Assembly (NCBI GenBank): GCA_902801485.1
Contig: CADCIP010000002.1
Span: forward strand, 62,001 to 126,000
Source: an uncultured Bacteroidales bacterium
GTDB taxonomy: Bacteria; Bacteroidota; Bacteroidia; Bacteroidales; Bacteroidaceae
DNA: 64,000 bases
Direction: 5' to 3'
This document shows positions 9,359-38,242 of this stretch, piece by piece. Each line of letters begins with the position of its first letter. The first letter of the stretch is position 1. The notes under the pieces are model-generated. The model made no database searches and was not told where the DNA came from. It worked only from the letters and a program-made list of their open reading frames with translations. The translations under genes were made by a program, and so were the position numbers.

Positions 9359-9398
9359 AAATACAACTAATTTCTCTCTGTCAATTAAAAGAATTTTA

Positions 9399-9406: not shown

Positions 9407-9440
9407 CATAAACTTAGTTGCAAACTTTAATAGATACATC

Positions 9441-9977
9441 ATGAAACATCTTATCATTACCCTATTTTCCCTCATGTTCTGTACCACGCTTTTAGCTTAT
9501 GACGTTGAAATTGACGGGATATATTATAACTTTTCTGGAGATGAAGCAGAAGTGACATATCAACAAAGGGTAGGAGAGAATCAATTTCCAATGTCTGATT
9601 ACTCTGGCTCAATTGTTATTCCTGAATCTGTTGTATATAAAGAAAAGTCTTACAAGGTCACCAGGATAGGTCAGCAAGCTTTTTTCTGTTGTGAAGACGT
9701 GATATCCATCACAATCCCTAAAAGTGTGAATGTAATTAGGCATTATGCATTTGCTGGTTGCTCAAACCTGACAGAAATAGTATGTAAGGCACATAATCCT
9801 CCTGCAACTCGTTATATAGATAAGGTTGGGTTTGACCGTCCTGGTGGTGTTTTTTACGGTGTGGATAAACAGAATTCAAACTATATGTTCCCCAAGGTTG
9901 TGAAGAGGCTTACAGAGCCTCAGAATTATGGAAGGACTTCAATATCGTGGAAATGGAAATGGGAATTGATGAAGTGA
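9441..9977 (+). CDS. Secreted BspA-like leucine-rich-repeat protein, C-terminus frameshifted
   Basis: The start is taken at ATG 9441 because it begins a clean signal peptide (MKHLIITLFSLMFCTTLLA), whereas the frame further upstream has no signal features. Mature residues show LRR_5/BspA repeats: GSIVIPESVVYKEKSYKVTR, then IGQQAFFCCEDVISITIPKS and IRHYAFAGCSNLTEIVCK. BspA-like proteins are surface adhesins or of unknown role. The end is abnormal. From 9881 a different frame encodes the expected family ending (LYVPQGCEEAYRASELWKDF, then NIVEM) and runs to TAG at 10022, while the annotated frame ends in the unlikely peptide SISWKWKWELMK. An indel near 9876-9884 therefore replaced the last ~30 residues. 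The gene is short for the family and may be decaying. Confidence 0.7.
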   Translation: MKHLIITLFSLMFCTTLLAYDVEIDGIYYNFSGDEAEVTYQQRVGENQFPMSDYSGSIVIPESVVYKEKSYKVTRIGQQAFFCCEDVISITIPKSVNVIRHYAFAGCSNLTEIVCKAHNPPATRYIDKVGFDRPGGVFYGVDKQNSNYMFPKVVKRLTEPQNYGRTSISWKWKWELMK

Positions 9978-22781: not shown

Positions 22782-25118
22782 ATGAAGAAGGTATCACTTA
22801 GCCACCTGGCACTGATTACATTGAGCATGGGCTTGTGCCTGAGTATCAAAGCACAAACAAAGTTGCTTTTTGATAAGGGCTGGCAATTTACACGAAACGG
22901 AAATACTATCGCAGTAGATTTGCCACATGATTGGGACATCTACGACTCGCCTGACCCTGCAACAGGCGCTACAGGTACCGGAGGAGGTTGGTTCCAAGGC
23001 GGAAAGGCTGAATACAGAAAAAAGTTCAGAGTGGAAAATGCAGAACTAAAAGACGACAGTCGGGCAAAATTACACTTCGAGGGTGTTTATCAGAGGGCAG
23101 AAGTTTTTATAAACGGACAGAAAGCAGGTCAGCATAGCTATGGCTATACACCTTTCACAATCGATATAACACCATATCTCTATAAGGACAATCGCGAGAA
23201 CGAGGTAGTAGTGAAGGTTGACAACAGCGGGCAACCCAACTGCCGCTGGTATAGTGGTTCTGGCATCTACCGACACGTCTGGCTTCTGACGATGCCTGCA
23301 TTGCATATTGCCGAGAATGGAGTATTCATTATTACCCCGGAAGTAACAAAAGATAAAGCTATTATTCAAGTTGAAGTAACGGTACAAAACGAAGCAGCAA
23401 CCGCACTGCGCGATTTCGTAGAGGTGGAAGGACAGAAAAAAGAGGTTGTACTGGATGCCGGTGAAAGCAAATCCATACTGTTTACTTATACCATCGAACG
23501 TCCACAGCTTTGGTCGCCCAATTCACCATATCTTTATACAGCCAATGCAAAACTCTCGAATCATAACTCTCGACTTTCCACGAAGTTTGGTGTTCGTACT
23601 TTCTCGTTTGATGCAGAAAAGGGATTTATTCTGAACGGCATACCTTTGCTCATTAACGGTTCATGTGTACATCACGATGATGGCATCCTTGGTGCGATGG
23701 CCTTTGACGATGCCGAAATCCGTAAGGTAAGATTGATGAAGGAGGCAGGTTTCAACCTGATTCGTACCTCGCATAACCCTACTACACGTGCTTTCCTTGA
23801 TGCATGCGACTCTTTGGGTATGCTAGTAATTGGTGAGGCTTTCGACGGATGGCGTTCGGCTAAACTGAAGTATGATTATTCTACACTTATCGACTCATGC
23901 TATCGCGAAGATATATATGCAATGGTTCTGCGCGACCGCAACCATCCTAGTATCATTTCATGGAGTATTGGAAACGAAGTCATCGAACGCAAGGAAATAC
24001 GTGTGATAACTACTGCCAGACAACTGAAAGCGGCCGTTCTGGAGTGTGACACAACGCGCCCCGTAACAGAGGCCCTATGTGCATGGGATCGCGACTGGGA
24101 AATCTATGACCCACATGCAGAAGTGCTGGATGTAGTAGGCTATAACTATATGATATTTAAGCATGCAAGCGACCACCAGCGCAATCCGAATCGGGTAATG
24201 TGGCAGACAGAAAGCTATCCGCGTGATGCCTTTAGGAACTGGTCTGTAGTAAATGATTTTCCCTACGTGGTTGGCGATATGGTGTGGACAGGTCTTGACT
24301 ATATGGGTGAGTCTGGTATTGGCAGGTATTATTACGAGGGCGAGCGTCCAGGCGAGAGTTTTGCCGAAGGCGGACAACCCGACTGGCATGGTGCTTACTG
24401 TGGTGATGTGGATGTGACAGGATGGCGTAAGCCTATCAGTCACTATCGAGAGATGTTGTGGAGCGATAAGTCCAATCTCTATATGGCTGTAAAAGAACCT
24501 GACGGCTATCTGGGTAAAATTAAGGAAACCATGTGGAGTGTATGGCCCACTTGGGAGAGCTGGACTTGGCCAGGTTGGGAAGGGAAACCCGTTGATGTGG
24601 AGGTGTACACCAAGGCACATGAGGTTAAACTATATTTAAACGACAAACTCATTGGAACTAAAAACGTTAATCGCGAAACACAATTTAAAGCAGTATTTAA
24701 CGTTCCTTACCAAGCAGGTACCTTGCGTGCTGAGGCTGACGGAAAGAGCGTAACACTATGCACCGTCGGAAACCCAGCAAGACTGCGACTGGCGACTGAT
24801 AAACAAGCATTGAAGGCAGATGGGCAATCACTGGCGTTCATTACAGTTGAAGTTGTAGATAAGAACGGGAACGTATGTCCCAATGCTGCTATCCCCTGTG
24901 AAGTAAATGTAAGCGGTCAAGGCCAACTGATGTCAGCAGCCTCAGCAGACCTTAAAGACCGAGAACCTTCTACCTCTGAACACTTTACTACATGGAAAGG
25001 CCGTGCTTTGGTAGTAGTGCGTAGCACGCAGAAGAAGGGTAAGGCGCAAATCAGCATCAAAAGCAAACTTCCAACAGCAACAATCAAACTCCCGGTTGAG
25101 TTCCTTCCGGGTTATTGA
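22782..25118 (+). CDS. Secreted GH2 beta-galactosidase-type enzyme with C-terminal Ig-like domains
   Basis: The 778-residue protein starts with a signal peptide (ends SIKAQ). A jelly-roll domain has DLPHDWDIYDSPDP near 45 and GVYQRAEVFINGQKAG near 100. An Ig-like domain follows, then a barrel with RTSHNPTTRAFLDACD, the acid/base Glu in IISWSIGNEVIER near 400, and the nucleophile Glu in VMWQTESYPRD near 475. After the barrel come a DUF4982-like sandwich (PVDVEVYTKAHEVKLYLND) and a further Ig/Big-like domain to the C-terminus. This layout is common in Bacteroidota beta-galactosidases acting on plant glycans. A short simple-repeat insertion encoding KLSNHNSRLS lies at about 23553-23580 in the Ig-like domain. 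The 3' end overlaps the convergent anti-sigma-like kinase gene by 7 bp. Confidence 0.9.
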   Translation: MKKVSLSHLALITLSMGLCLSIKAQTKLLFDKGWQFTRNGNTIAVDLPHDWDIYDSPDPATGATGTGGGWFQGGKAEYRKKFRVENAELKDDSRAKLHFEGVYQRAEVFINGQKAGQHSYGYTPFTIDITPYLYKDNRENEVVVKVDNSGQPNCRWYSGSGIYRHVWLLTMPALHIAENGVFIITPEVTKDKAIIQVEVTVQNEAATALRDFVEVEGQKKEVVLDAGESKSILFTYTIERPQLWSPNSPYLYTANAKLSNHNSRLSTKFGVRTFSFDAEKGFILNGIPLLINGSCVHHDDGILGAMAFDDAEIRKVRLMKEAGFNLIRTSHNPTTRAFLDACDSLGMLVIGEAFDGWRSAKLKYDYSTLIDSCYREDIYAMVLRDRNHPSIISWSIGNEVIERKEIRVITTARQLKAAVLECDTTRPVTEALCAWDRDWEIYDPHAEVLDVVGYNYMIFKHASDHQRNPNRVMWQTESYPRDAFRNWSVVNDFPYVVGDMVWTGLDYMGESGIGRYYYEGERPGESFAEGGQPDWHGAYCGDVDVTGWRKPISHYREMLWSDKSNLYMAVKEPDGYLGKIKETMWSVWPTWESWTWPGWEGKPVDVEVYTKAHEVKLYLNDKLIGTKNVNRETQFKAVFNVPYQAGTLRAEADGKSVTLCTVGNPARLRLATDKQALKADGQSLAFITVEVVDKNGNVCPNAAIPCEVNVSGQGQLMSAASADLKDREPSTSEHFTTWKGRALVVVRSTQKKGKAQISIKSKLPTATIKLPVEFLPGY

Positions 25119-25528
25119 TTGTTGTCTCTAATAACTTTTTCGATAGTAAGAACATTTTTGTTATTTATATACGAATAGCGGATGTCGTCCATCTTACGGA
25201 TAGTAAGCAAAATGCCTAAGCCGCCAATGGGACGTTTCTTCCAACTTAGAGTGGTATCCGGATTTTTCTGTTCTAATGGGTTGAAAGGCATTCCACCATC
25301 CTCAAAGGAAATGATGATACTGTCGGCCTTCTGGATTTCAATATCCATAAAACCATCGGCACCTTCGGGATAGGCATATTTCACCACATTTGTTATTATT
25401 TCCTCACATGCCAGACGTAAGAGCAAAATCTCTTTTAGGCTACAAGAAGAAACTTCCGGTGACTTTAGAACTGCACTAAGGATTGTCCGTGTCTGTCCTT
25501 TGATGGGTTGAAAATGAAACTTACTCAT
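25112..25528 (-). CDS. RsbW-like serine-protein kinase (HATPase_c), partner-switching anti-factor
   Basis: In the known systems such kinases phosphorylate a STAS partner and, when released from it, bind and block a sigma factor or other target. The 138-residue protein has the GHKL ATPase signature. The N-box is in LACEEIITNVVKYAYPEG near residue 40, the G1 box in SFEDGGMPFNP near 74, and the G2 region in RPIGGLGILLTIRKMDD near 98. It is the last gene of a minus-strand run, 2 bp after the debranching enzyme. A STAS protein and a PP2C phosphatase lie in the same run, so the full switch is present. No sigma factor is encoded nearby; the target is unknown. Confidence 0.87.
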   Translation of the reverse strand: MSKFHFQPIKGQTRTILSAVLKSPEVSSCSLKEILLLRLACEEIITNVVKYAYPEGADGFMDIEIQKADSIIISFEDGGMPFNPLEQKNPDTTLSWKKRPIGGLGILLTIRKMDDIRYSYINNKNVLTIEKVIRDNNQ

Positions 25529-25530
25529 TA

Positions 25531-27648
25531 TTATTTACCAACTAATATGATGATAGAGCGGGGCCCTACCAGAACTTCATGCTGATTATCAATAACAGGT
25601 TCCTGTCCTGGCTCGAAGATATCTTCTGGAGCGTTCATGCCCGTATTGGTAAAGACATGCCAGACCTTCCCTTGGGGTAGCATAGGCAGTTCGAAGCCAT
25701 GCATCTCCCAGTGCATATTAATTGCCACATAGATGAAATCGTCTGCTTCTCCATCCGTTTCGGCATATAGCCCGTTCAGCATAAATGCCACAGTCAGGTT
25801 ATTATGACCTGTTTCGGGTTGCCATGCCCTAACACCGTGCCATGAGAAATCGGGATAACCCAGATTGCGAAAGTCGCTATGACTTAGATGATCTTCATAG
25901 CGAAGCACCTTATGCAGGCGACGAAACAGGATCATCCGCCTGAAGAACCTGAAGATATCTGCATTCTTCTCCAGATTGTTCCAATCGAGCCAGGCAATCT
26001 CATTATCCTGACAGTATGCATTGTTATTACCTTGCTGAGAGTTGCCAATCTCGTCGCCAGACAATACCATAGGGATTCCCTGACTAACCATAAGCAACGA
26101 AATGGCGTTCTTGATTTGCTGATGTCGCAGATGGTTAATGTCTGGATCGTTACATTCGCCTTCAAATCCGCAATTCCAACTATTATTAAGATTCTCACCA
26201 TCGCAGTTATTCTCTCCGTTGGCTTCGTTGTGCTTATTGTTGTACGAGACAAGATCCATCAGTGTAAAACCATCGTGCGCTGTAATAAAGTTAACGCTTG
26301 CCTTAATGCCTCTTTTCTGTGAAGCGTAGAGGTCGGGCGAACCAATGATACGTTCCTTCACATCTGCCAGCACTTGTTCATCGCTCTTCAGGAAGCGGCG
26401 CATGCTATCGCGGAACTTACCATTCCATTCTGCCCAGCGTCCCCAAGAGGGGAAGGAGCCAACCTGATAAAGACCGCCTGCATCCCAGGCTTCTGCTATC
26501 AGTTTTGTCTTACCTAAGATAGGATCGTGTGCCAAGGATTCCAGCAGTGGAGGATTAGACATGGGATTGCCGTTTTGGTCGCGTCCCAAAATCGCAGCCA
26601 GATCAAACCGGAACCCGTCAATGTGGTAATCGGTAACCCAGTAGCGAAGACTTTCCACAATCATATCACGCACGTTGGGATTGTTGCAGTTTAGCGTATT
26701 GCCACATCCGCTAAAATTGAAGTAGTAGCCTTCTGGCGTAAGCATGTAGTAAGTCTTATTGTCTATGCCGCGATAAGAGATGTAAGGACCATTTTCATTG
26801 CCCTCAGCTGTATGGTTGAACACCACATCAAGTATCACCTCTATACCATTGGTATGCAGTTTTTTCACCAAGTTCTTCAGTTCATCCACTTGCATGCCGA
26901 ACCGTCCTGATGAGGCGTATGCGGCTTTAGGTGCAAAGAATCCCACGTTACTGTACCCCCATAGGTTGCAGAGTTGTCGTCCGTCAACCGGCGAGATACG
27001 GGAGTTTTCAAATTCGTCAAACTCATGAATAGGCATCAGTTCCACACAGTTGATACCCAACTCCTTTAAGTAGGGAATCTTTTCGACAATACCGGCAAAG
27101 GTTCCGGGATGTTTCACATTAGCACCCTTGCCACATGTAAAGTTACGTACGTGCATCTCATAGACAACGAGGTCATTGACGGGTGTTTCCAGGGGCATAT
27201 CGTTCTCCCAATCGAAATCATCGAAAACCACACGGGCACGATATTGATATATTTTATCCCAATTGGGCAACTGTCCCCAAACGTCACGCCCTGCTATCAG
27301 TTTAGCGTATGGGTCAAGCAGAATTTTCGATTTATCAAAGCGGTGTCCTTCTTCTGGTTGGAATGGACCGTCCATACGGTATCCGTATTCGATGTCCTCA
27401 TAATCTAAGTCAAAGATAATCATCGAAAAAACATTACCCATCCTGAACTCTTTGAAAAATGGAATTTCGACGAACGGTTTTTCTTCGTGTTTGTGGAAAA
27501 GCACCAATGTGCAGTCTGTGGCATAGCGTGAATACACCGAGAAGTTTACCATATTGCCAAAGACCATTGCACCGAACGGATAAGGGCGACCTGCACGCAA
27601 CTTCAATCCTTTATACTCATGTGTAGGGAATAAATCTACTCTTTGCAT
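25531..27648 (-). CDS. glgX: GlgX-type glycogen debranching enzyme (GH13 isoamylase family)
   Basis: The enzyme hydrolyses alpha-1,6 branches of glycogen or limit dextrin in the cytoplasm (no signal peptide). The 705-residue protein has an N-terminal early-set domain (about 10-150, FGAMVFGNMVNFSVYSR) and a GH13 barrel. Region I is VVFNHTAEGNENGP. Region II carries the nucleophile Asp in DGFRFDLAAILGRD. Region III carries Glu in KLIAEAWDAGGLYQVG. Region IV is FITAHDGFTLMDLVSYN, the typical isoamylase/GlgX form. A C-terminal beta domain follows. It lies 5 bp after the STAS gene and 2 bp before the kinase gene, so it is cotranscribed with partner-switch regulators, an unusual setting for a metabolic enzyme. 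Confidence 0.92.
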   Translation of the reverse strand: MQRVDLFPTHEYKGLKLRAGRPYPFGAMVFGNMVNFSVYSRYATDCTLVLFHKHEEKPFVEIPFFKEFRMGNVFSMIIFDLDYEDIEYGYRMDGPFQPEEGHRFDKSKILLDPYAKLIAGRDVWGQLPNWDKIYQYRARVVFDDFDWENDMPLETPVNDLVVYEMHVRNFTCGKGANVKHPGTFAGIVEKIPYLKELGINCVELMPIHEFDEFENSRISPVDGRQLCNLWGYSNVGFFAPKAAYASSGRFGMQVDELKNLVKKLHTNGIEVILDVVFNHTAEGNENGPYISYRGIDNKTYYMLTPEGYYFNFSGCGNTLNCNNPNVRDMIVESLRYWVTDYHIDGFRFDLAAILGRDQNGNPMSNPPLLESLAHDPILGKTKLIAEAWDAGGLYQVGSFPSWGRWAEWNGKFRDSMRRFLKSDEQVLADVKERIIGSPDLYASQKRGIKASVNFITAHDGFTLMDLVSYNNKHNEANGENNCDGENLNNSWNCGFEGECNDPDINHLRHQQIKNAISLLMVSQGIPMVLSGDEIGNSQQGNNNAYCQDNEIAWLDWNNLEKNADIFRFFRRMILFRRLHKVLRYEDHLSHSDFRNLGYPDFSWHGVRAWQPETGHNNLTVAFMLNGLYAETDGEADDFIYVAINMHWEMHGFELPMLPQGKVWHVFTNTGMNAPEDIFEPGQEPVIDNQHEVLVGPRSIIILVGK

Positions 27649-27653
27649 AACAA

Positions 27654-27965
27654 TCAGTTCTCAATTGCTTTTAGGCATTCTTCCATTGTACTGAAAGAAT
27701 CAAAGAAACTGTCAAAGCCTGTCACATTCATAATGTCCCGAACCTCTTCGCTGATGCCAACCAGATACATTTTCAGCCCTTTTGTGGCAGCAACTTTCTT
27801 GGAGTATAGCAATACACGCAAACCTGTACTGGAAACATACTTGCAGGCAGTCATATCCAATATAACACTTTGGCCTTTCTCCAAAATGGCCAGAATTCCG
27901 TCTTGTTCTTCCTGGTAGTTGAAAGAGTCCAGCTCTTCACCTAATTTATAAATATCTGTTGTCAT
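27654..27965 (-). CDS. STAS-domain anti-anti-sigma-like protein
   Basis: STAS proteins of the RsbV/SpoIIAA type are phosphorylated by their kinase and reactivated by a PP2C phosphatase. This 103-residue protein is a single STAS domain. The core strand VILDMTACKYVSSTGLRVLL (residues about 34-53) contains the Ser-Ser-Thr stretch where the phosphoacceptor normally sits. The next helix has LLYSKKVAATKG. The short N-terminal extension is acidic (EELDSFNYQEEQDG). It is 72 bp after the phosphatase gene, with a palindromic element in that gap, and 5 bp before glgX. Confidence 0.88.
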   Translation of the reverse strand: MTTDIYKLGEELDSFNYQEEQDGILAILEKGQSVILDMTACKYVSSTGLRVLLYSKKVAATKGLKMYLVGISEEVRDIMNVTGFDSFFDSFSTMEECLKAIEN

Positions 27966-27981
27966 TGTAATAATTTTGACC

Positions 27982-28015
27982 CACTCAGCCCTTCCCTTAG
28001 GGGAGGAGAGGAGCG
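27982..28015. repeat. GC-rich palindromic element in an operon gap
   Basis: CTCAGCCCTTCCCTTAGGGG followed by AGGAGAGGAGCGG forms an imperfect hairpin centred on CCCTTAGGG. It belongs to the same general style as the other GC-rich palindromes here and lies between the phosphatase and STAS genes, where it could affect transcript processing. Confidence 0.55.
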
Positions 28016-28037
28016 GTGTTCATTAATTCGAAATATT

Positions 28038-29234
28038 CTAGTCCCTAATCCTTTTCCAATGAATGGACATCATAGTGAGATCGTCGCTTTGAGGAGCATC
28101 GCCCACAAATTGATGTACAGCCTGAGTCATCCCTTCTATCAGTTGTTTGCAGCTTGTTTTAATATTCAGTTGATCTTTGAGGCGTTCACGACCAAACAGT
28201 TTGCGTTGAGCATTCATGGCCTCAGTCAGACCGTCAGTATAGAGGAATAACGTAGTATCTGTTGGCAAGGTATATTCTCTCACTACGAACACTGTCTCAT
28301 CCGAAACACCCAGAGGCAGATCGGGCTTTGCCGGTAGCTCTGTAATGCTGTCATTCATGATGAAGGGCTTGTTGTGTCCCGCATTACAATAGCGCAACAG
28401 TCCTGTATTCAAGTCCAATACACCTGCAAAGAAAGTTACAAACATAACGGTTTCGTTTCCTTCGCATCTGGTGTCGTTAAGAGATTGAATGACTTTTTCG
28501 ATATCGTCCTCATAACTGACCACATTACGGAACTGACTGAGGGTCATAGCCATCACCAAAGCAGCTGGCACGCCCTTGCCTGAGACGTCGCCTATACAGA
28601 AGAAAAGCTTACCATTGCTGATAAAGAAGTCATAGAGGTCGCCGCCAACATCCTTGGCCGAAATAAGTTGACCGTAGATATCCAGGTAGTCGCCATTAGT
28701 AGTGGGAACATATACTTTTGGCAACATAGACTGCTGAATGTCGCATGCTGCTTGCAACTCACCCTCTATACGGCCTTTGGCCTCGTTCACCTGTTTCAGT
28801 TCCTCCATCTGATGCGCTAGTGATTGCTGCATAATACAGAACGAATGATGTAGCCGTTGCATCTCATCCTTGGAATGAATGGTGGGTAGGGTAGCCTGCA
28901 GATTTCCCTGTGCTATTTCGTCCACTGCTTGAGTAAACTCAGTCAGTGGGGCTATGAGCCGATGGATAAGTCGTCTCAACTGACCAGTGAGCACTATTAG
29001 TGTTATGATGGACACCATAGTTAGCGCCAACGACAATCTGCGCACGGTGATGGCATGCAGCAGACCGTGTTCCTGCACCTCTCTAATAAGCTTCATCAGG
29101 AAATAATCGCCCACATAGGCCGAAATGGTTAAAATCACAACCACATATATCACCACCCAGAGGCTGATGCGACTTGCAAGTGATTCCCTGATATGTAGTA
29201 GATTGGACATCCACATAGATTTCCTTATTTGCAT
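28038..29234 (-). CDS. Membrane-bound SpoIIE/RsbU-type PP2C phosphatase with HAMP domain
   Basis: This 398-residue protein would dephosphorylate the STAS protein and set the switch. Two membrane helices at about 25-45 and 65-85 are separated by only ~20 residues, so there is no room for a large external sensor domain. A HAMP segment (about 86-140, LIAPLTEFTQAVDEIAQGN) and a coiled-coil linker follow. The PP2C domain has metal-binding motifs DVGGDLYDF and GDVSGKGVPAALVMAM, then YTDGLTEAMN and QSDDLTMMSIHW. Signals must come through the membrane, the HAMP linker or a partner protein. It overlaps the upstream amylase gene by 10 bp, so translation is probably coupled. Confidence 0.9.
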   Translation of the reverse strand: MQIRKSMWMSNLLHIRESLASRISLWVVIYVVVILTISAYVGDYFLMKLIREVQEHGLLHAITVRRLSLALTMVSIITLIVLTGQLRRLIHRLIAPLTEFTQAVDEIAQGNLQATLPTIHSKDEMQRLHHSFCIMQQSLAHQMEELKQVNEAKGRIEGELQAACDIQQSMLPKVYVPTTNGDYLDIYGQLISAKDVGGDLYDFFISNGKLFFCIGDVSGKGVPAALVMAMTLSQFRNVVSYEDDIEKVIQSLNDTRCEGNETVMFVTFFAGVLDLNTGLLRYCNAGHNKPFIMNDSITELPAKPDLPLGVSDETVFVVREYTLPTDTTLFLYTDGLTEAMNAQRKLFGRERLKDQLNIKTSCKQLIEGMTQAVHQFVGDAPQSDDLTMMSIHWKRIRD

Positions 29235-30379
29235 AATCTCAATGCTGTAGGCTGTTTAGTCCAGTCCATACAGTTACGAACACGCAGGTCGGCATATGGT
29301 TCAGCATTGAAGATGGTAGAATTGATAGTCATCAGTTGTTCTGTTCCGTAAAGGAAGGAGAAAGGTCTGGTTTGTTCCATTGTCAGATCGATGGCTTCTT
29401 GCAACATGGTAACATTATTATGACAGTCAAATAGGAAACGGTCTGTATCGTGGTTGTCCAGGAACAAAACCAACTTGAAATCGGCAGGATATTTGGCAAA
29501 GTGGTCGGCAATCTTACTCTTGAGCGTTGCATTGCCTTTTATACCATGACCTGCATGGACTTCTTCCAGCAGGAGGTCGCGATATGCAAAGTCCAAAACA
29601 CCATCCAATGTGCCTACGTAATCGGCCTGCAGGTTGTCTTGGCTAAATGGTTTGGTTTCCTGTGCAAGAAACTCGTTCAGTCTGTTCTCTGTCTTGAAGT
29701 ACAACTGACTGGCCAATTGTGGACCAATGCCGAATGCCCAGACTTCTCCAAACACGACAATATCACTGCGAATGGCTTGCAGACTTTCACGCAAGCTCTT
29801 CAGGAATCTGTGCGGTTGTCCCAACGCATGGTCAATGCGGAAAGCATCTACTCCCATGTTGGCGAGTTTTTCCGCTTTGTCAATCATGAAACTGACCACA
29901 TTTGGATTAGTAAGATTGAATTTGGGCAGGTCGCCATAGCCCAGGAACGATACAAATTCATCATTGCTCTCATTTTTGAAGAAGAACCAGTCACGGTTTC
30001 TGCCTCCGTTCTTCAACAATGCCTCCTGGAACATAGGAGCCTGATACCAGCAATGGTTTGGTACGAAGTCGCAGATAATTTTTAAACCCTTGTCATGAGC
30101 GGTGTCGAGCAACCGCTGATAGTCTTCCCAAGTGCCCAGATGCGGGTCCACTTCGTCGAAATTCAGGGTGTGATAACCATGATAGTTCGCAGATGCAAAG
30201 ATGGGCGACAGCATCACAGCGTTAAAACCAAGCTCCTTGATGTAATCCAGTTTGTCTGTAACTCCCTGCAGATTTCCACCACAGAAAACGTTCTTACTTT
30301 TTGGCGGTATCTTCCAACCTCCATTAAATCTGTCAATTAGCAGATGATAGATGCGGTTATTATCGAACCATTCTTTCAT
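29225..30379 (-). CDS. Cytoplasmic GH13 alpha-amylase-family enzyme
   Basis: The enzyme should act on alpha-1,4-glucan or maltodextrin inside the cell, since no signal peptide is present. The compact 384-residue protein starts directly with strand 1 (IYHLLIDRFNGGW). The GH13 regions are ICDFVPNHCWY (I), GVDAFRIDHALGQPH with the nucleophile Asp (II), VVFGEVWAFG with the acid/base Glu (III) and LFLDNHDTDRF with the transition-state Asp (IV). It lacks most of the usual C-terminal domain, so it is short for the family. Its stop region overlaps the phosphatase gene by 10 bp. Only 32 bp separate it from the TolC gene upstream, and I see only a weak TATCTTTT-like element there, so it could be read from the efflux operon. 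Confidence 0.88.
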   Translation of the reverse strand: MKEWFDNNRIYHLLIDRFNGGWKIPPKSKNVFCGGNLQGVTDKLDYIKELGFNAVMLSPIFASANYHGYHTLNFDEVDPHLGTWEDYQRLLDTAHDKGLKIICDFVPNHCWYQAPMFQEALLKNGGRNRDWFFFKNESNDEFVSFLGYGDLPKFNLTNPNVVSFMIDKAEKLANMGVDAFRIDHALGQPHRFLKSLRESLQAIRSDIVVFGEVWAFGIGPQLASQLYFKTENRLNEFLAQETKPFSQDNLQADYVGTLDGVLDFAYRDLLLEEVHAGHGIKGNATLKSKIADHFAKYPADFKLVLFLDNHDTDRFLFDCHNNVTMLQEAIDLTMEQTRPFSFLYGTEQLMTINSTIFNAEPYADLRVRNCMDWTKQPTALRLCK

Positions 30380-30411
30380 AAAAATAACTTATAAAAAAGA
30401 TATATGTTGTT

Positions 30412-31752
30412 TTATTCCTCCAGGCGTCCTGTTACACGAAGGTATTCGGTCTCGTAAATTTTAAGTTGGGTCTGCGCCTCGATGAGGTTGCTGCGTGCTT
30501 GTTGCCATTGTGATTGAGCATCAAGCAGGTCTGTCATAGTGCACAGCTGATTATCGTACTTTTGACGCATTACACGCAAGTTCTCGTCAGCCTGTTGTCT
30601 ACCAACTATAGCTGTCTCAACCATACGTTGACCGTCTGTCACATTCTGAACAGCCTTGCGGACTTCCACACGCATGCCGCGTTCTAATTGCTGTAATTGC
30701 AGATGTGAATCGGCCAGGCTAAGCTTTGCCTTCTTTACTTTCTTAAGCTCAGCTCCCCAGTGGAAAATAGGCAATTTAAGAGCAAGTATGGCATAGGGAC
30801 TACTACCTTTGAAAGTGTGGTTAAATCCCAGATTAGTACCATTAGGCAAATTCAGATCACCCTTCAGCTTTAAATTGTCATGATATGAATAGCTACCAAT
30901 AAGTGCCAAAGTTGGTAGATAATTAGAACGCGCTCTCTTCACCTCTACTTCGCTTGCTTTAACCTGTTGCTGAAGCAAATGAAGGTCAGGACGGGACGAA
31001 AAATCTTCGCTTAACCCTAAATCTTGAGAATTAAGAGTTGAGGATTGATAATTAAAGATGGTATCTGTAGGTATGATAACCTGTTCCAAATCGGTACCAA
31101 TAGCGTATGCCAGTGCCAACCCACATAGTTGTTCACCATTATGTGCCTTCTGCAACTGGTAACTGATTTCGTTCTGCTTAGTAGAGATGCGCAGGAGGTC
31201 GTTTTCTGTAGCCATTTGGACGTTAACACCCAATTGTACTTGGTCATAAAGTCCTTGCATTTGACGAGCGTATGCCTCCAGCATCTGGACTTTAGAACGT
31301 ACAGAGATTAGCGTATAGTAGGCGTTATCTACGTCGGCAATCACTTGCTGGCGAATTTTACGCTGTTGCTCCTCGCTAACTGTCTGACCAATACGAGCAA
31401 GTCGGTTGGCTGCTGTTATTTGTCCGCCCACATAAAGGGGCTGAGTGATATTTACACCTGCAAGAAAAGTGCCTCGAGTCTGTAACGAAACACCCAAAAC
31501 ATTACCAATTTCAAGCAAGTCTTGATTCTGCATGTGGAGCAAAGTGAAGGAGCCGTCCACTTTAGGCAGATACTGGGCAAATGCTATTTGGCGATCCAGT
31601 TTTGCTTTATTAACGGCATTGTCGGCTGTCTTGATTTTCTCGTTATATTCAAGAGCCATTCTTCGACAGTCTTGCAGGCTCAGGGACAATGGCTGTGCAT
31701 GGAGCCCAGCAACCGTTACCATTGTTATAATGGTCAAAATATATTGTTTCAT
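30412..31752 (-). CDS. TolC-family outer membrane efflux protein
   Basis: TolC proteins form the outer membrane exit duct for RND pumps. The start is ATG 31752, which gives a signal peptide (MKQYILTIITMVTVAGLHAQ); the longer open frame runs into the pump gene and has no conserved sequence. The start overlaps the pump stop in the four bases ATGA, classic coupling. The two OEP repeats cover about residues 25-215 and 235-445, with long helices rich in Gln, Glu and Ala. A segment encoding NYQSSTLNSQDL (about 31015-31060) falls between the two repeats and is made of the AT-rich CAATTCTCAATT-type repeat seen elsewhere, so it looks like an in-frame insertion into a tolerant loop. Confidence 0.92.
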   Translation of the reverse strand: MKQYILTIITMVTVAGLHAQPLSLSLQDCRRMALEYNEKIKTADNAVNKAKLDRQIAFAQYLPKVDGSFTLLHMQNQDLLEIGNVLGVSLQTRGTFLAGVNITQPLYVGGQITAANRLARIGQTVSEEQQRKIRQQVIADVDNAYYTLISVRSKVQMLEAYARQMQGLYDQVQLGVNVQMATENDLLRISTKQNEISYQLQKAHNGEQLCGLALAYAIGTDLEQVIIPTDTIFNYQSSTLNSQDLGLSEDFSSRPDLHLLQQQVKASEVEVKRARSNYLPTLALIGSYSYHDNLKLKGDLNLPNGTNLGFNHTFKGSSPYAILALKLPIFHWGAELKKVKKAKLSLADSHLQLQQLERGMRVEVRKAVQNVTDGQRMVETAIVGRQQADENLRVMRQKYDNQLCTMTDLLDAQSQWQQARSNLIEAQTQLKIYETEYLRVTGRLEE

Positions 31753-34700
31753 GCTTTTTTTGGTTCTTGTACTTTGAAAATGGTGGAATATAAAATTGGC
31801 AGGAAGATGAGAATGATAAGTGTACCCATAGTCAGACCAGACATGATGCATACTGCCATAGAACCGTACATCGGGTCGGGAATAAGCGGAGCCATACCCA
31901 AAATAGTAGTCAGCGATGCCATGATAACAGGACTTGTTCGACTTACAGTGGCATTCACAACAGCGTCGTAGGCAGGAAGTTTCTCTTCATTCCGTAGGCG
32001 ATTAATTTCGTCCACCAGAACAATACCATTTTTGATCATCATACCTACAAGACCCATTGCACCAAGGATTGCAATGAAAGTGAAAGGCATTCCCAAAAGA
32101 AGTAGTGCAGGAACAATACCTACCACGATGAATGGCAGACAGAATACTATAGTCAGTACTTGCTTCCAACTATTGAACAATAAAAGCATGATGACAAGTA
32201 TGAATGCAAAGGCCAAAGGAAATAGTCCCAAGATAGAGCCGGCAGCTTCGCCAGAGGAACCTCCTTCACCTTGCCACGACATAGAGTAGCCTTGTGGCAG
32301 TTCGATGGCTTCGATGGCCTTGCGGATATCAGCCTCCACCTTCTTGGGCGTTGCATCGTCAAGGTCTGGATTCGGGTCACACTCTGCTTGAATCGTACGC
32401 TGTCCATTACGACGGAAGATATAGTCTTCTTCCCACTCCAAATGAATATCACTATTTACTGTACCCAAAGGAATACTGTTGGTCAACTTGCTTTCCACAT
32501 CCTCAACACTTGTGGTACCAGCTATTAAGCCTTTGACATCATCTGGAGTTATATTCATATTCAATGTGCTCCATACAGGCATATTACTGATATTCTTAAT
32601 TTTAGAACCATCCTCGTTGCGCACTTGCATCTGAACAATGATTCTCTTATCTTGATCGCTGATGATGCCAACAGGCATTCCGTCGGTAGCCGCAAGCAAT
32701 GCGTCGGCTACGTTCTCGCGATTAAGTCCGCTACGTAACGCATCGGTCTGAACATAATTGGTTACAATAGCTTTACCTTTATTCTGCCAGTTGTTCTGAA
32801 CGGAGTAAGTATCTACGTATTTTGAATTACGCATGATAGCTTCTGCTTGGTGTACCAATTCACGTAATACTTCTGGGTCAGGACCCTGGAATTCTACCTC
32901 CACAGTATGGGTAGTCGTGATGCTGAAGTTGTAGTTACGGAAACGGATATAAGCATCGGGATAAGCTGTACGCAATTGTGGGCGAATTTCTTTGATGACT
33001 TCTTTCATCGTCTTGAAATCCTTAGTATCAATAATAAGTTCACCATCATTGCTGCCACTAGTGTTCATGGGGCGAACCAGACTATAGCGAACAGGAGACG
33101 AACCCATTGAGGCTGTAACACGGTCAATTTTCGGGTTCTTCAGCAAGGTATCCGTAATTGCCAACAGATCTTCCCGTACACGATCAGGACTGGTCTGGTC
33201 GGGTAAATGATATTCAACCACAAACTGGCCATAATCAAAGTCGGGAAAGAAAACCTGCTTTACTTTGGTATAACCAAAAGCACAGGCTACTAACAAGACT
33301 AACATAATACAGATGGTGGTATAGCGGAAGTCTATGAGCTTGCTTATTAACTTGCGTGTCATAGCCTGCAGTTTCGTTTCTTTAACTTCACCATTACAAG
33401 CCTTCTCTTTCGGTCTCAGTGGCATCCAGGCTACTACACAAGACGGGACTTGTACCATTGCCATCACCCATGAGGCTAACAAAGAGATGCAGAGTACGAG
33501 GAAAAGGTCACGGCAGTATTCACCCGCTGTACTCTTGGAAATATAGGTAGGGTAGAATGTCAGCACAGCAATAACTGTTGCTCCTAACATGGGCAATGCA
33601 GTGTTGTTGACTATATTATATAAGTATGATTTAGGACCTAAGCCTCGTTTACGATCCACCAATATACCATCCATAACCACAATAGCATTATCCACCAACA
33701 TACCCATTGCAACAATGAATGCTCCGAGAGAGATACGCTGCAAGGTACTGTCGGCTATAAGCAGAATCGGGAAAGTAACAAAGATGGCCAGCACAAGACT
33801 GGTACCGATAATCATACCGCCACGGAATCCGTAGGTGAACATCAGAACTACAATCACAATGAGTACAGACTCCAGCAGGTTCAGAAGAAAACCATTTACA
33901 GCACTGGTAACCTGATCGGCCTGAAAGAATATCTTGTCGGTCTCAAATCCTACAGGAAGACGATCCTTGACTTCTGCCAGTTTTTTGTCAACAGCCTTTC
34001 CCACATCGGGTACGATGGCATCATCATTTAAGGTTATGCAGATTCCGAGTGCAGGTTTGCCATCAACAAAAAAACCTCCTGTCTGCGGCTCTTTATAATT
34101 TCGCTCAACTTTAGCGATATCCCCAAGTCGCATCAGTTTGTCTTCGGTAGTACGGATATGCAGGTCAGCAATATCCTTTTCATCCTCCAATTCGTTGTTT
34201 ACACGCAACTGCAGTCGGTCATCATCATTCTCGTAATTACCGGCATTCACAGTTTTACCTGCATTTTGTAGTCCTATCATCACCTGTGTAGGTAATATTC
34301 CTGTTCGTGCAAGTTTCTCCTTATCGATAATGATATTGATAACTTCGGGACGTGTGCCAATAATGTTGATTCGTTTAACACCTTTTACTGTAAGCAATTC
34401 ACGGCGTACCAGCTTAGCATATTTCTCCAATTCTGCGTAGCTGTAGCCGTCGCCCATAAAGGCATAGAACAGACCATATACATCCAGCATGTCATCGACT
34501 ACGATAGGAGCGTAGCAGCCAGAGGGAAGTTTCGACTGTACATCGTTAGCCTTGCGGCGCAGCTGGTCGAAGTGCTGCTCCATCTCAGACATCTTCACTT
34601 TTTGCTGGAATTTCACACCTATAATGGCCATGTTAGGACGACAATCCGTAGTCAGTTCCTTTACATCGGCCAGTGTACGCAATTCGTCTTCCATTACCTG

Positions 34701-34901
34701 TACGGCCTCTAATTCTACCTCATGTGCAGTTGCGCCAGGATAGACTAATACAACAGAGGCTTGCTTAACAGCAACGGCCGGGTCTTCCAATTTGGGCATC
34801 TTAAAGTAACTAAGCACACCAATTAAAAGGATTCCAACCACAAAGCTCCAAAATATAATCGGACGCTTGACGAAAAATTCTGTCAGTGCTCTTGCGTTCA
34901 T
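31749..34901 (-). CDS. RND-family efflux pump inner membrane transporter
   Basis: This 1050-residue protein has the RND layout of two six-helix halves with large periplasmic loops. TM1 is in IIFWSFVVGILLIGVLSYF, and the porter domain shows QASVVLVYPGATAHEVE. The TM4 region IVAMGMLVDNAIVVMDG carries the proton-relay Asp type motif. The second half ends with GAMGLVGMMIKNGIVLVDE and PLIPDPMYGSMAVCIMSG. It exports drugs, bile salts or lipids using the proton gradient; the substrate cannot be told. It is 39 bp after the membrane-fusion gene and overlaps TolC by 4 bp, so the tripartite pump is a single operon. Confidence 0.93.
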   Translation of the reverse strand: MNARALTEFFVKRPIIFWSFVVGILLIGVLSYFKMPKLEDPAVAVKQASVVLVYPGATAHEVELEAVQVMEDELRTLADVKELTTDCRPNMAIIGVKFQQKVKMSEMEQHFDQLRRKANDVQSKLPSGCYAPIVVDDMLDVYGLFYAFMGDGYSYAELEKYAKLVRRELLTVKGVKRINIIGTRPEVINIIIDKEKLARTGILPTQVMIGLQNAGKTVNAGNYENDDDRLQLRVNNELEDEKDIADLHIRTTEDKLMRLGDIAKVERNYKEPQTGGFFVDGKPALGICITLNDDAIVPDVGKAVDKKLAEVKDRLPVGFETDKIFFQADQVTSAVNGFLLNLLESVLIVIVVLMFTYGFRGGMIIGTSLVLAIFVTFPILLIADSTLQRISLGAFIVAMGMLVDNAIVVMDGILVDRKRGLGPKSYLYNIVNNTALPMLGATVIAVLTFYPTYISKSTAGEYCRDLFLVLCISLLASWVMAMVQVPSCVVAWMPLRPKEKACNGEVKETKLQAMTRKLISKLIDFRYTTICIMLVLLVACAFGYTKVKQVFFPDFDYGQFVVEYHLPDQTSPDRVREDLLAITDTLLKNPKIDRVTASMGSSPVRYSLVRPMNTSGSNDGELIIDTKDFKTMKEVIKEIRPQLRTAYPDAYIRFRNYNFSITTTHTVEVEFQGPDPEVLRELVHQAEAIMRNSKYVDTYSVQNNWQNKGKAIVTNYVQTDALRSGLNRENVADALLAATDGMPVGIISDQDKRIIVQMQVRNEDGSKIKNISNMPVWSTLNMNITPDDVKGLIAGTTSVEDVESKLTNSIPLGTVNSDIHLEWEEDYIFRRNGQRTIQAECDPNPDLDDATPKKVEADIRKAIEAIELPQGYSMSWQGEGGSSGEAAGSILGLFPLAFAFILVIMLLLFNSWKQVLTIVFCLPFIVVGIVPALLLLGMPFTFIAILGAMGLVGMMIKNGIVLVDEINRLRNEEKLPAYDAVVNATVSRTSPVIMASLTTILGMAPLIPDPMYGSMAVCIMSGLTMGTLIILIFLPILYSTIFKVQEPKKA

Positions 34902-34940
34902 ATTCTTTGATTATTTAGTTGACAAATTGATTGTTTTCGT

Positions 34941-35990
34941 TTAAAGAAGGTCCCCTACATTCGTGTTCTTTTGTGTAACAATTTTCACTTTGTCCCCATC
35001 GTGGAGTGCCTTTACGCCAGCCTTCACTACGCGGTCGTTTGCAGAGATTCCATCAACAACAACTGCCATACCCTCGGAATCTACACCACTGACAGAGATA
35101 GCATGGCGCTTTACCACATCGCCTTGCTCAACCACCCAAACGTATGTTTTATTATTGTCTTCGAAGATGGCATGAGCTGGAATCGAGAAACCTTTAACAG
35201 TTTCAGATCCACCCATTTCAATATATACATCAACGTTAACGCCTGCACTAAGATGCCCGTCGATTGCAAACTTCACAGTGAAGAGTTGGTTAGCGTCGGC
35301 TTTAGCCAATACGCTTTTCTTGTGCAAGTTATACCTGTTACCCGCAGCTAAGCAATATGCTTCGGTAGTGTTGCTCAACATACGATATATATCATTAGGA
35401 ATGTTCACCTCCACTTCCATGCTACGAGTATCTATAAGGTCCATCACAGGCAGTCCTGCACTTACCATTTCAGAAGGCTCAAAGTTAACCTTTTGGATAG
35501 TCCCGTCAACAGGAGCTGTCAGTTGAGTGTAGCTTAATTGGTTCTTGGCATTTTGTAATTTGATACGAAGTTGTTCCAATCCGCTTGTAGCTTTCTCGTA
35601 GTCGTTTCCTGGCAGGCTATTGGCCTCGTGTAACTTACGAAGTCGTTCCACTTCGTTTTTCAACTGATCGTACTGCGTCTGTGCAGCATCCACCTGTAGT
35701 TGGTAATCCTTTGTGTCAAGTGTGGCAACCAACTGGCCTTTCCTTACGTGCGCACCTTCTTTTACTAATACACGCATTATCTGACCCGGTGTGCGGAAAC
35801 TTAGACTCACGGTACTGTTCTCTTTCACTACACCTGAAAAATTTTTCACCGCCAACTCCTGACGATTCAACGGTAGCACAGTCATTACACTGTGTACCTT
35901 CGCTTCGTTGACTTTCTTGTCGCTTTCTCCACATGCTGTCAGCAAACCAACTATTGCCAACGCAAAAACAGATTTTTTAATATTCTTCAT
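34941..35990 (-). CDS. RND efflux membrane-fusion lipoprotein
   Basis: The periplasmic adaptor links the pump to TolC. The 349-residue protein has a lipoprotein signal (SVFALAIVGLLTACGES, Cys at about 20). A biotinyl-lipoyl-like half hairpin has RTPGQIMRVLVKEGAHVRKG, then the helical hairpin (about 90-135) and the second half GTIQKVNFEPSEMVSAG. Beta-barrel and membrane-proximal domains end in VVVDGISANDRVVKAG. It is the second gene after the patatin-like gene (26 bp gap) and first of the three pump components. Confidence 0.92.
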   Translation of the reverse strand: MKNIKKSVFALAIVGLLTACGESDKKVNEAKVHSVMTVLPLNRQELAVKNFSGVVKENSTVSLSFRTPGQIMRVLVKEGAHVRKGQLVATLDTKDYQLQVDAAQTQYDQLKNEVERLRKLHEANSLPGNDYEKATSGLEQLRIKLQNAKNQLSYTQLTAPVDGTIQKVNFEPSEMVSAGLPVMDLIDTRSMEVEVNIPNDIYRMLSNTTEAYCLAAGNRYNLHKKSVLAKADANQLFTVKFAIDGHLSAGVNVDVYIEMGGSETVKGFSIPAHAIFEDNNKTYVWVVEQGDVVKRHAISVSGVDSEGMAVVVDGISANDRVVKAGVKALHDGDKVKIVTQKNTNVGDLL

Positions 35991-36016
35991 TTTTATTTAT
36001 GGTTTGATTATTAAAT

Positions 36017-38242
36017 TTAAAATTCGTATCCCAAATCAAGGAAGAAATATGGTTTCTTGGTATGGTTGCTATAGCCGAATGTGGCACCAAGGGGCCCGAA
36101 GATAGTATTGTAGTAATAGGCTATCTGTCCGCCCAACAGCGTACGGTTGTCAAAGATTTCCTTTAACTTGTCAGATTGCTGTCCAGCTGCAAAACGTAAT
36201 AATATATAATGGTTAGAACCTATGCGCTGCTGTCCCTGAAGCTGAACTGCGATGAATTGTTTTCCTACGTACTCCATGTTTCCGATTCCTGCAAAAGGCA
36301 TCTGCTGTTCTACGTAGTGTCCGAACCAGTTTCCCCCGATGACGTTGCCGAATATGTGACGAACCACATCGCCGAAGAGCAGTCGTCCATAGACCATAGG
36401 TTGAAGGGTGAACCGCTTGCCAAAGGTGAACGACATACGCCAGTTAGCACTAACTTCGTTTAGGCCTGTCTGACCGTCAAGACGCAAGAAGTTGTCTGTT
36501 ACATAGGCATACTCTGCTTTGAAGCGAGCACCTCGAGTGGGGAAGATCCAGTTATCTTCACTATTGTAGTTGGCCCGGGCACGATAGCTGAAGTAGTGGT
36601 CGTTATTAAGTGCCAATTCTGCATTTTTGTTTTCCGCCTTCAGAATGTCACGGTATTTTACATAATCCCAGCGCAATCCTATCTGTAGGTTAAAGTGTCG
36701 GACATCGAAATTAAGCGGCAAAAATTCTGCCTGATGCTGATGGTATAGGATACTGTAGTCGTGGTCTCCCTTGATATATACATCTACATCGTTTCTGCGG
36801 AAAGTGTAAGAAACTGTAGGGCGTGTGAAACTGCGTGGATGGATGGTCCAACCCCCGTGTACCATTATACGCTTGCCCAGTCGGAGCGTTACATCAGCAT
36901 TCATGGGAGTCTTGGTTTTAAATGGAAATTCTGCACCCACCTGCAGCGAAGCATGTTCCTCTGTATCGTAGCGCATGCCTGCATGTAATTGAACAGTCTT
37001 GCGTTCGCCTGCCGAGATGATAACACGAATACCTTTACCATCCGGAACAAAACGGCATTCGGCAGTCTGATAAAAGAGGTCGGTGCGCATACAGGTGGTT
37101 ATTTCCTGAGCCAATCTGGCGTCTATGCTGTCTGCTTTCTGCAAATGGAACTTCTGGCGCAAGAACATCTCGGTCTGCGGATTCATATTCTCAAAAGTAT
37201 AACCAGTGACGTACTGCTTCTCTGTCATTACCTGAGGACGAAGAGGTTGCAGAATAGCAGGGTGGAATGTGTCGTCTATTCCAATACGCTTTTTCAGAGC
37301 AATAATTTCGTCCCAATGACGCATGGCTTCTTCCTCGCCACGGTGGATGAGCGTATCGATGGCAGCTGAAGAAAAACTGGCAGAACCATAGCCTTTGGTG
37401 TTTACCTGCATGTGAAGGTCGGTGATGGCCAAGTTGTCCTCCACCTTGTTCTTACAGTTCACGTCCACAATCTGGCTGATGATGCTCATGGTGCCGCCCA
37501 TGTCCTCTGCCACCTTTGGTGCACCTTGCACAGTAACACCGATGATTATTTCGGCTCCCATTTCTTTTGCAATATCGGCGGGATAGTTATTCTTCAGACC
37601 GCCGTCAACCAATACTTTATCACCTAACCTGATGGGTGAGAAAGCTCCGGGTATCGACATAGATGAGCGCATGGCCTGGGGAAGTCGCCCGCTATGGAAG
37701 TCAAATTCCGAGTTGTCTATAATGTTCGTTGCCACGCAGGCAAAAGGGATAGGCAGGTCTTTCGAGAAATCCAGTGAGTCGGTGTAGCCTGTGCAGAGAT
37801 GCTGGAACAGTTCTGCCAGGTTTTTGCCCTTAATCAGGCCACCGGCGTTCTTATCACGTTTTCCTATGGTCAAGCCTGTTGTAAAGACATAGGTATATTG
37901 CCTCAGCCTGTCTCTGAGACTCTGGTTACGCAAGTCTTCCTTATCGCTGATGACATAACTCCAGTCCTGAGCCCGTGCAACAGAATCAAGCGCAATTGCA
38001 TTATAGCCAATGGAATATAAACCACCGATGATACTTCCCATAGATGTGCCAGTAACAATATCTACAGGGATGCCGGCTTTCTCCAGCACTTTCAATACAC
38101 CAATATGCGCCATACCCTTGGCACCGCCACCGCTCAAAACAACAGCGACTTTTTTCCTATTCACAAATGTACTGTCTTTCTGAGCATTCACTGTGTTTCC
38201 AATTAATATAGCAGCAAATACCAACAATAGTAATTTTTTCAT
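36017..38242 (-). CDS. Patatin-like phospholipase with Omp85-type beta-barrel (PlpD-like)
   Basis: The 741-residue protein has a signal peptide (ends NTVNAQ). A patatin domain at about 30-310 has the oxyanion loop VVLSGGGAKGMAHIGVLK, the nucleophile Ser in DIVTGTSMGSIIGGLYS, and the dyad Asp in VLVDGGLKNNYPADIA. A POTRA-like linker (about 330-410) and a C-terminal 16-strand-type barrel follow, ending in aromatic FFLDLGYEF, a typical outer-membrane signature. Known relatives (PlpD, type Vd secretion) display a phospholipase or lipase. It leads the efflux operon, so membrane lipid turnover and export may be linked; that link is inference from gene order. No strong promoter was identified upstream. 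Confidence 0.9.
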   Translation of the reverse strand: MKKLLLLVFAAILIGNTVNAQKDSTFVNRKKVAVVLSGGGAKGMAHIGVLKVLEKAGIPVDIVTGTSMGSIIGGLYSIGYNAIALDSVARAQDWSYVISDKEDLRNQSLRDRLRQYTYVFTTGLTIGKRDKNAGGLIKGKNLAELFQHLCTGYTDSLDFSKDLPIPFACVATNIIDNSEFDFHSGRLPQAMRSSMSIPGAFSPIRLGDKVLVDGGLKNNYPADIAKEMGAEIIIGVTVQGAPKVAEDMGGTMSIISQIVDVNCKNKVEDNLAITDLHMQVNTKGYGSASFSSAAIDTLIHRGEEEAMRHWDEIIALKKRIGIDDTFHPAILQPLRPQVMTEKQYVTGYTFENMNPQTEMFLRQKFHLQKADSIDARLAQEITTCMRTDLFYQTAECRFVPDGKGIRVIISAGERKTVQLHAGMRYDTEEHASLQVGAEFPFKTKTPMNADVTLRLGKRIMVHGGWTIHPRSFTRPTVSYTFRRNDVDVYIKGDHDYSILYHQHQAEFLPLNFDVRHFNLQIGLRWDYVKYRDILKAENKNAELALNNDHYFSYRARANYNSEDNWIFPTRGARFKAEYAYVTDNFLRLDGQTGLNEVSANWRMSFTFGKRFTLQPMVYGRLLFGDVVRHIFGNVIGGNWFGHYVEQQMPFAGIGNMEYVGKQFIAVQLQGQQRIGSNHYILLRFAAGQQSDKLKEIFDNRTLLGGQIAYYYNTIFGPLGATFGYSNHTKKPYFFLDLGYEF

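Follow-up and report, generated by a model that had tools for sequence, protein, structure and literature searches.

A partner-switch cassette enclosing a GlgX-type debranching enzyme in an uncultured Bacteroidales bacterium, and its kinship with the cyanobacterial icfG cluster

The DNA considered here – a stretch of 64,000 nucleotides from an uncultured Bacteroidales bacterium (contig CADCIP010000002.1, positions 62,001–126,000), referred to in its entirety as the window – carries a compact cassette in which the parts of a partner switch, namely a SpoIIE-type phosphatase, a STAS protein and an RsbW-like kinase, are interleaved with a GH13 amylase-type enzyme and a GlgX-type debranching enzyme. 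An original prediction made from the letters alone gave the order as GH13, SpoIIE, STAS, GlgX, kinase on the minus strand; all five open reading frames (ORFs) were recovered as described (Table 1), and with them the tight spacing, the GH13 and SpoIIE genes overlapping by 10 bp, STAS and GlgX standing 5 bp apart and GlgX and the kinase 2 bp apart.

Table 1. Features of the cassette, with positions counted from the first letter of the window
Feature	Position	Strand	Basis
GH13 alpha-amylase-type enzyme, 384 aa	29225..30379	-	Pfam PF00128 Alpha-amylase 156.8 bits
PPM/SpoIIE-type serine phosphatase, 398 aa	28038..29234	-	Pfam SpoIIE 161.9, HAMP 36.2 bits
SpoIIE-STAS gap, 72 bp, the only sizeable gap of the cassette	27966..28037	-	ORF map
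STAS protein, STAS1 class, 103 aa, phospho-acceptor position Ser46	27654..27965	-	Pfam STAS 67.8 bits
GlgX/isoamylase-type glycogen debranching enzyme, switch-carrying clade, 705 aa	25531..27648	-	CBM_48, Alpha-amylase, Isoamylase_C; TIGR02100
RsbW/SpoIIAB-like GHKL serine kinase, 138 aa	25112..25528	-	HATPase_c_2 58.2 bits

That the key motifs of the five families are intact, as had been claimed, is borne out by Pfam, by NCBIfam and by the location of the motifs themselves. The GH13 enzyme carries DFVPNH, GVDAFRIDHA and VVFGEVWA, and its closest solved structures are the alpha-amylase 8jnx and neopullulanases/maltogenic amylases. In the phosphatase we find VGGDLYD, GDVSGKG, TDGLTEA and SDDLTM, with the PPM metal-binding motifs present, along with a HAMP domain and two hydrophobic, membrane-like segments (hydropathy, Pfam). 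The kinase has EEIITNVVKYAY, EDGGMPFNP and GGLGI, with its N, G1 and G2 boxes present; the motifs located in these three proteins we take to be catalytic. Residues E43, N47, D77, G103, G105, D114 and N125 are invariant in 68 of 68 kinases, and a structure model of the window kinase (pLDDT 88.9) retrieves with Foldseek first the Leptospira response regulator LvrC (9qih) and then SpoIIAB (1l0o/1til) and RsbW (6m37). GlgX scores 681.9 bits against a TIGR02100 equivalog cut-off of 640.9 and is the one gene to exceed it in its own genome, which is 85% complete; among solved structures it comes closest to chloroplast isoamylase 1 (623.9 bits). Defence-system profiles run against the five proteins returned a single generic GlgB-type model, which matched two of them.

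A central issue is how far this arrangement is shared. A contig scan with the window GlgX returned at least 588 relatives, of which the best 80 loci were studied, so that the counts describe the nearest part of the family; and, since some contigs stop near GlgX, they are lower bounds. Flanking genes were called with profiles from the window proteins and, for an AGE-like gene (GlcNAc 2-epimerase family), with a profile built from six loci; STAS was scored as just upstream when it lay within 700 bp of GlgX on the same strand. Of the 80 loci, 75 have STAS just upstream of GlgX and 62 have a kinase a short way downstream; a SpoIIE gene lies within about 8.5 kb in 47, and in two GlgX is fused to the kinase. 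Upstream there may be an AGE-like gene (39/80) or a GH13 gene (34/80), never both (0/80), and a second STAS gene follows GlgX in 37 loci and in none of the 34 with GH13, 25 of which have wide flanks. Among the 46 loci without GH13, AGE is found in 39, the second STAS in 37 and both in 36. In the 61 loci with no less than 3 kb of sequence before GlgX and 1.5 kb after it, 28 read AGE-STAS-GlgX-STAS-kinase, 21 read GH13-STAS-GlgX-kinase and 12 vary. The exact five-gene order of the window occurs in eight of the 80 and, with an extra SpoIIE gene, in a ninth (L039); nine such loci, taken together with STAS upstream in 75, make the arrangement more than chance.

The nearest loci include members of Bacteroidota, Cyanobacteriota, Chloroflexota, Omnitrophota, Riflebacteria, Nitrospirota and Schekmanbacteria. 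What they conserve is a core of STAS-GlgX-(STAS)-kinase, and the amylase is a local replacement that sits where most GH13-less relatives have AGE. The phosphatase shifts in both position and input domain (dCache/PDC-HAMP, HAMP only, GAF or a response-regulator receiver among eight relatives scanned). The original prediction placed the enzymes within the regulatory cassette, and the conserved order supports this; it missed the precedent of the icfG cluster, discussed below, and the amylase is not part of the conserved core.

The STAS proteins fall into two classes, STAS1, which includes the window protein, and STAS2. Profile scores separate them completely (76/76 and 37/37), though on the profiles' own training rows, the window STAS being one of the 76; generic STAS proteins score as STAS1, so that only STAS2 membership is diagnostic. 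The acceptor serine – Ser46 in the window – is kept in 76 of 76 STAS1 proteins, the window included, and in 37 of 37 of STAS2, with an arginine four residues on in both classes; the residue preceding it is serine in all STAS1 and alanine or serine in STAS2. We considered whether AGE and STAS2 are always lost jointly, and rejected the idea: in L042 a STAS2-class gene stands together with a second kinase directly upstream of GH13 (7635-9628), giving this locus two kinases and both STAS classes. AGE also occurs without STAS2 right after GlgX in L091, L100 and L118 (where the contig ends), and STAS2 without a detected AGE in L106.

Three further observations concern the loci themselves. In L056 (8435-10555; L148 is judged by coordinates to be the same place) the GlgX frame is broken by a TAG stop and the remaining cassette is present. 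A DJ-1/PfpI family gene lies beside the switch cassette, and also beside a pair formed by GlgX and an AGE-STAS fusion (L070 12883-13449, L087 9859-10437, L228 5382-5948). In one Bacteroidota genome a DUF4301 gene stands between GlgX and a second STAS-kinase pair (L222 9299-10930).

Wider samples place limits on this conservation. A near-full-length GlgX was found in one of 61 genomes of the family sample and in nine of 121 of the genus sample, incomplete metagenome-assembled genomes (MAGs) included. Across Bacteroidales, 13 of 247 genomes have GlgX at E 1e-100 or better, and it is STAS-flanked in five, the window and L120-L123, the latter at 63-81% identity; at 43-48% there was no stand-alone STAS or kinase gene within about 1.4 kb in eight of eight loci, one of which (L129) is cut just upstream. 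The survey of gene order put forward with the original prediction has a divided answer: among the nearest loci the order is conserved and not random, but it is not a general trait of Bacteroidales.

In cyanobacteria a GlgX match was found in 42 of 156 genomes, with loci given for 30 of the 48 matches. All 11 of those at 62-67% identity have STAS upstream, and none of the 19 at 45-50% has a stand-alone STAS or kinase gene, L173 having 135 bases visible upstream; in two of these 19 control loci (L165, L166) an AGE-STAS fusion adjoins GlgX. Dyadobacter and Chloroploca carry both classes of GlgX, and the one second copy examined in each genus (L142, L143) is without switch genes. In Bacteroidota as a whole (GlgX matches in 72 of 395 genomes), 30 loci were inspected: seven have STAS upstream (the window, L192, L194, L196, L197, L199 and L200), two are cut by a contig end (L195, L198) and 21 have no STAS upstream, AGE adjoining GlgX in five of these. 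L196, L197, L199 and L200 have a kinase domain before STAS-GlgX, which in two genomes belongs to a SpoIIE-kinase hybrid protein (L224, L225). A rule restricting STAS adjacency to GlgX of at least 60% identity was tried and rejected: STAS-GlgX pairs occur at 56-59%, in other layouts, in L194, L196, L197, L199 and L200. GlgX without STAS was seen in L193 (59%), L201-L204 (51-53%), L152 (52%, with 440 bases visible upstream) and L153 (49%), so the border of STAS adjacency is not sharp.

Two phylogenetic trees of GlgX were built. The first, of 78 rows, was drawn from 145 GlgX rows once near-copies, genomes already represented and L056 had been removed; the second, of 93 rows, leaves out 12 earlier rows and the cut L195 and L198. 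The labels are coarse, a score above 1100 bits being what assigned most rows to the switch type, L068, L085 and L086 included, although these have no adjacent STAS. In the 78-row tree the switch-type rows, among them the window and the cyanobacterial cassette GlgX, form one side of a branch with SH-aLRT support of 86, which becomes 99 when the switch-free, long-branched L152 and L153 join them. On the 93-row tree, STAS adjacency requires two changes under the coarse labels; because these take in L068, L085 and L086 the true number is higher. GlgX of gut Bacteroidales clusters with that of Omnitrophota and Riflebacteria and is separated from other Bacteroidota (support 88 in the 78-row and 99 in the 93-row tree), which suggests transfer. 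The branches of L152 and L153 (L242) are 1.2-1.6 long against a median of 0.15-0.2, as if freed of constraint, or misplaced. Positions conserved exclusively in switch-type GlgX are more frequent in the N-terminal 140 residues than in the rest (19/140 against 40/565, Fisher p 0.017); the enrichment is weak and the region was picked after looking, making it only a lead for a contact surface, and the fused kinase described next sits at the opposite, C-terminal end.

Domains of the switch are also found joined to enzymes, in two different ways (30 rows were aligned for the fusion, A2, and 53 for the kinase, A3). In the Bacteroidales MAGs L085 and L086, the latter from horse faeces, a single ORF of 852 aa comprises GlgX, a linker of about 5-8 residues and a kinase domain; a SpoIIE gene follows in both, and the one that was scanned, that of L086, has a dCache input domain. 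The two are 90% identical, so the fusion is probably a single event. Each of these genomes holds another kinase gene elsewhere, with a STAS gene nearby (L184, L185). The second kind involves AGE: wherever AGE stands beside a GlgX of 44-48% identity in the widely fetched loci, it bears a C-terminal STAS domain (seven of seven: L228, L229, L231-L235), called by Pfam over cut-off in the two scanned and by the STAS profiles in the remainder. Four of the seven loci come from one family, which leaves about four lineages. All seven fused domains score higher as STAS2 than as STAS1, and the acceptor-serine position is occupied by Glu in five, Asp in one and Pro in one. The acidic residue in six of seven hints that the phosphorylated form of STAS may be the one that works with AGE.

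The icfG cluster (slr1852-slr1862) of Synechocystis sp. PCC 6803 is the closest known counterpart; according to PMC8670252 and PMC12329169 it comprises slr1856 (STAS), slr1857 (isoamylase), slr1859 (STAS), slr1860 (the phosphatase IcfG) and slr1861 (kinase), together with slr1855, annotated as an N-acetylglucosamine 2-epimerase. The same two sources implicate the cluster in carbon and glucose regulation, and PMC12329169 traces its description to the 1990s (Beuf 1994, Shi 1999, as cited there). That report has Slr1861 phosphorylating Slr1856, Slr1859 and Ssr1600, and IcfG dephosphorylating Slr1856; it gives the sigma targets of Slr1856 and Slr1859 as unknown. The isoamylase slr1857 was assayed on gel in a study of Synechocystis isoamylases (PMC4911114), the visible part of which gives no outcome for its activity and lists one and the same reverse primer for both slr0237 and slr1857, perhaps a printing slip.

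Our comparison with this cluster runs through other cyanobacteria (GlgX identity 62-67%), the Synechocystis genes being known here from descriptions. The window shares with it a STAS gene directly upstream of GlgX, here by 5 bp, an RsbW-like kinase, a SpoIIE-type phosphatase and a GlgX of the switch clade. It differs in having no second STAS after GlgX to match slr1859, GlgX and the kinase being 2 bp apart; in having GH13 instead of an epimerase-like counterpart of slr1855; and in placing before STAS a phosphatase with HAMP and membrane-like segments. The window module is an icfG cluster in derived form; its architecture is a variant of something known, and it is the mechanism that would be new. 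Across the open-licence literature, as far as titles and the openings of abstracts go and with subscription papers outside, we found no report of the cross-phylum conservation, of the fusions or of GlgX as the target of a switch.

Other relatives are more distant. The SpoIIAB/SpoIIAA/SpoIIE and RsbW/RsbV/RsbU systems of Bacillus share with the window the kinase fold, the STAS phosphoserine site and the phosphatase family, the site reading SSTG in the window and DSSG in Bacillus. In the Bacillus switches the sigma-factor target is encoded in or near the operon, whereas no sigma gene is seen near the window cassette; the remark to this effect in the original prediction agrees with the nine genes scanned, no search for sigma genes of the extracytoplasmic function (ECF) type having been made in the window. 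GlgX itself matches the GlgX/isoamylase family (TIGR02100) and plant isoamylase 1 over nearly the whole length, and differs from them in forming, with its switch-associated relatives, a separate clade. The SiaABCD system of Pseudomonas aeruginosa, as described in PMC8457831, offers a functional precedent, with a phosphatase, a kinase and a phospho-gated partner, SiaC, that acts by contact on an enzyme, SiaD. There the target is a diguanylate cyclase and the partner a DUF1987 protein phosphorylated on threonine (PMC8457831); for the window we propose a glycogen enzyme as target, the partner is a STAS protein with serine, and no diguanylate cyclase is found by Pfam among the five cassette genes. 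The best NCBIfam match of the window phosphatase is SiaA, at 59.9 bits far below the cut-off of 700.

What, then, does the switch act upon? We favour the reading that the cassette is an icfG-type partner switch whose main output is GlgX – in the window probably also GH13 – controlled after translation by protein contact, and we hold it tentatively, at a probability of roughly 0.48. Physical contact between switch and enzymes is the best-supported reading because three things converge upon it: the conserved pairing, the restriction to a clade of GlgX and the two independent kinds of fusion. The membrane phosphatase, on a signal arriving through HAMP, would strip the phosphate from Ser46 of a STAS protein presumed to be phosphorylated there, and the kinase would restore it. 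The phosphorylation state would set the partner of the kinase, either STAS or another protein, for which we propose GlgX, much as the kinase in Bacillus turns to a sigma factor. GlgX, freed or bound, would then set the rate at which its presumed substrate, glycogen, is trimmed or broken down, in whichever direction the contact acts. If the parallel with SiaC and SiaD holds (PMC8457831), it may be the partner protein in its unphosphorylated form that docks on the enzyme and activates it; a scheme modelled on SpoIIAB would instead have the kinase hold GlgX until STAS takes it away. Doubtful, but worth stating, is a stronger form in which the STAS proteins are phospho-gated subunits of glycogen enzymes and not anti-anti-sigma factors, STAS1 serving GlgX and STAS2 serving AGE: the switch would govern an assembly of carbohydrate enzymes, AGE-STAS2 with Glu or Asp would be a locked, kinase-free form, and the GlgX-kinase fusion a kinase tethered to its target. 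Control by direct binding had already been suggested in the original prediction; order conservation, fusions and low sigma counts make contact the best reading, which goes no further than inference.

Several findings weigh against control by contact. The GlgX-kinase fusion belongs to one clade of two close genomes; it was seen in one of 101 genomes of its genus, and a family sample of 299 genomes added no other. No STAS lies beside it, within the 300 bases visible upstream in L085 and the 627 in L086, and the fused kinase is 38.6% identical to a stand-alone kinase of the same genome against 40% to cassette kinases. A model of the L086 fusion was too poor to serve as a guide to a docking surface (pLDDT 63.2, pTM 0.66, the kinase part mostly below 50) and was not used. 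The AGE-STAS fusions adjoin a different class of GlgX and have no kinase beside them in the 5.5-16 kb fetched. Five of the 80 nearest loci lack STAS just upstream, namely L068 and L069 (GlgX alone), L085 and L086 (the fusions) and L102 (a phosphatase gene between); L068, which sits on a short branch, and L069 have no switch gene within 8-10 kb on either side of GlgX. Seven of the 34 GH13 loci are without a close downstream kinase, some contigs ending there.

The most serious rival, though in our judgement an unlikely one, is a classical transcriptional switch, in which the kinase binds a sigma factor (primary, ECF, or SigC in cyanobacteria) or some other transcription factor, with GlgX and GH13 simply as co-expressed output or neighbours. 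The original prediction had set a sigma target aside, but one has experimental support in Synechocystis: PMC12329169 reports Slr1861 of the icfG cluster as an anti-SigC factor acting with Ssr1600, which speaks against an enzyme target, and a primary-sigma target is reported for Chlamydia (PMC4552016). Yet Ssr1600 is reported not to be adjacent to a kinase gene, which leaves the STAS pair of the icfG cluster still without a target (PMC12329169).

Counts of region-3 sigma matches cut both ways. The window's genome (85% complete, ECF not counted) has one, on another contig; among 16 Bacteroidota cassette genomes there are none in two, one in nine, two in four and three in one, that is, at most one in 11 of 16. 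The 6-12 matches in four cyanobacterial cassette genomes, some of them split pieces, speak for the transcriptional switch, as do the two or three in five of the 16 Bacteroidota genomes; several of the others are only 72-87% complete. For most of the tested Bacteroidota the low counts make a dedicated SigB/SigF-like target unlikely, with sequence missing from MAGs, ECF factors and the primary sigma leaving room. Transcriptional control leaves the enzyme fusions unexplained. The window's genome also holds four further partner-switch modules (L186-L189, on contigs C38, C13, C59 and C24), one a kinase-STAS pair and three SpoIIE-kinase hybrids, with a STAS gene near two of the three.

Information might also flow in reverse, with GlgX (and AGE) as glucan sensors that tune the kinase or STAS by glycogen status, some other output lying downstream. 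The two kinds of fusion fit an enzyme as sensor domain equally, and among the eight phosphatases scanned the sensor domains vary, GlgX being the constant. We nonetheless think this improbable: GlgX passes the debranching equivalog cut-off and shows many invariant residues in an alignment of 30 rows, which argues that it is no bare sensor, inputs are already supplied by the phosphatase, and no other constant output gene is seen in the cassette. More improbable still is mere passenger linkage, in which enzymes and switch crossed between phyla together in one operon and have no functional contact. The patchy distribution (nine of 121 in the genus) and the trees placing gut Bacteroidales nearer to Omnitrophota and Riflebacteria than to other Bacteroidota suggest transfer, but against this reading stand the fusion of switch domains to two different enzymes, the persistence of STAS1 by GlgX as the phosphatase moves and AGE is swapped for GH13, and the invariance of Ser46 (76/76).

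As to the setting of the cassette, its GH13 gene starts 32 bp past an outer-membrane efflux gene on the same strand, preceded in turn by RND/membrane-fusion-like ORFs, recognised by eye, and a patatin-Omp85 gene (30412-38242 together). On the minus strand from 25,100 to 32,000, the 72-bp gap included, no Bacteroidota-type promoter pattern with at most one mismatch was found, so the cassette may be transcribed from farther upstream.

In PMC12329169 the two icfG STAS proteins are left without a known sigma target. If the module does act on GlgX and its partner enzyme, then a device known mainly for the control of genes would regulate storage-glycogen enzymes directly, and would do so across several phyla, bacteria of the ruminant gut among them.

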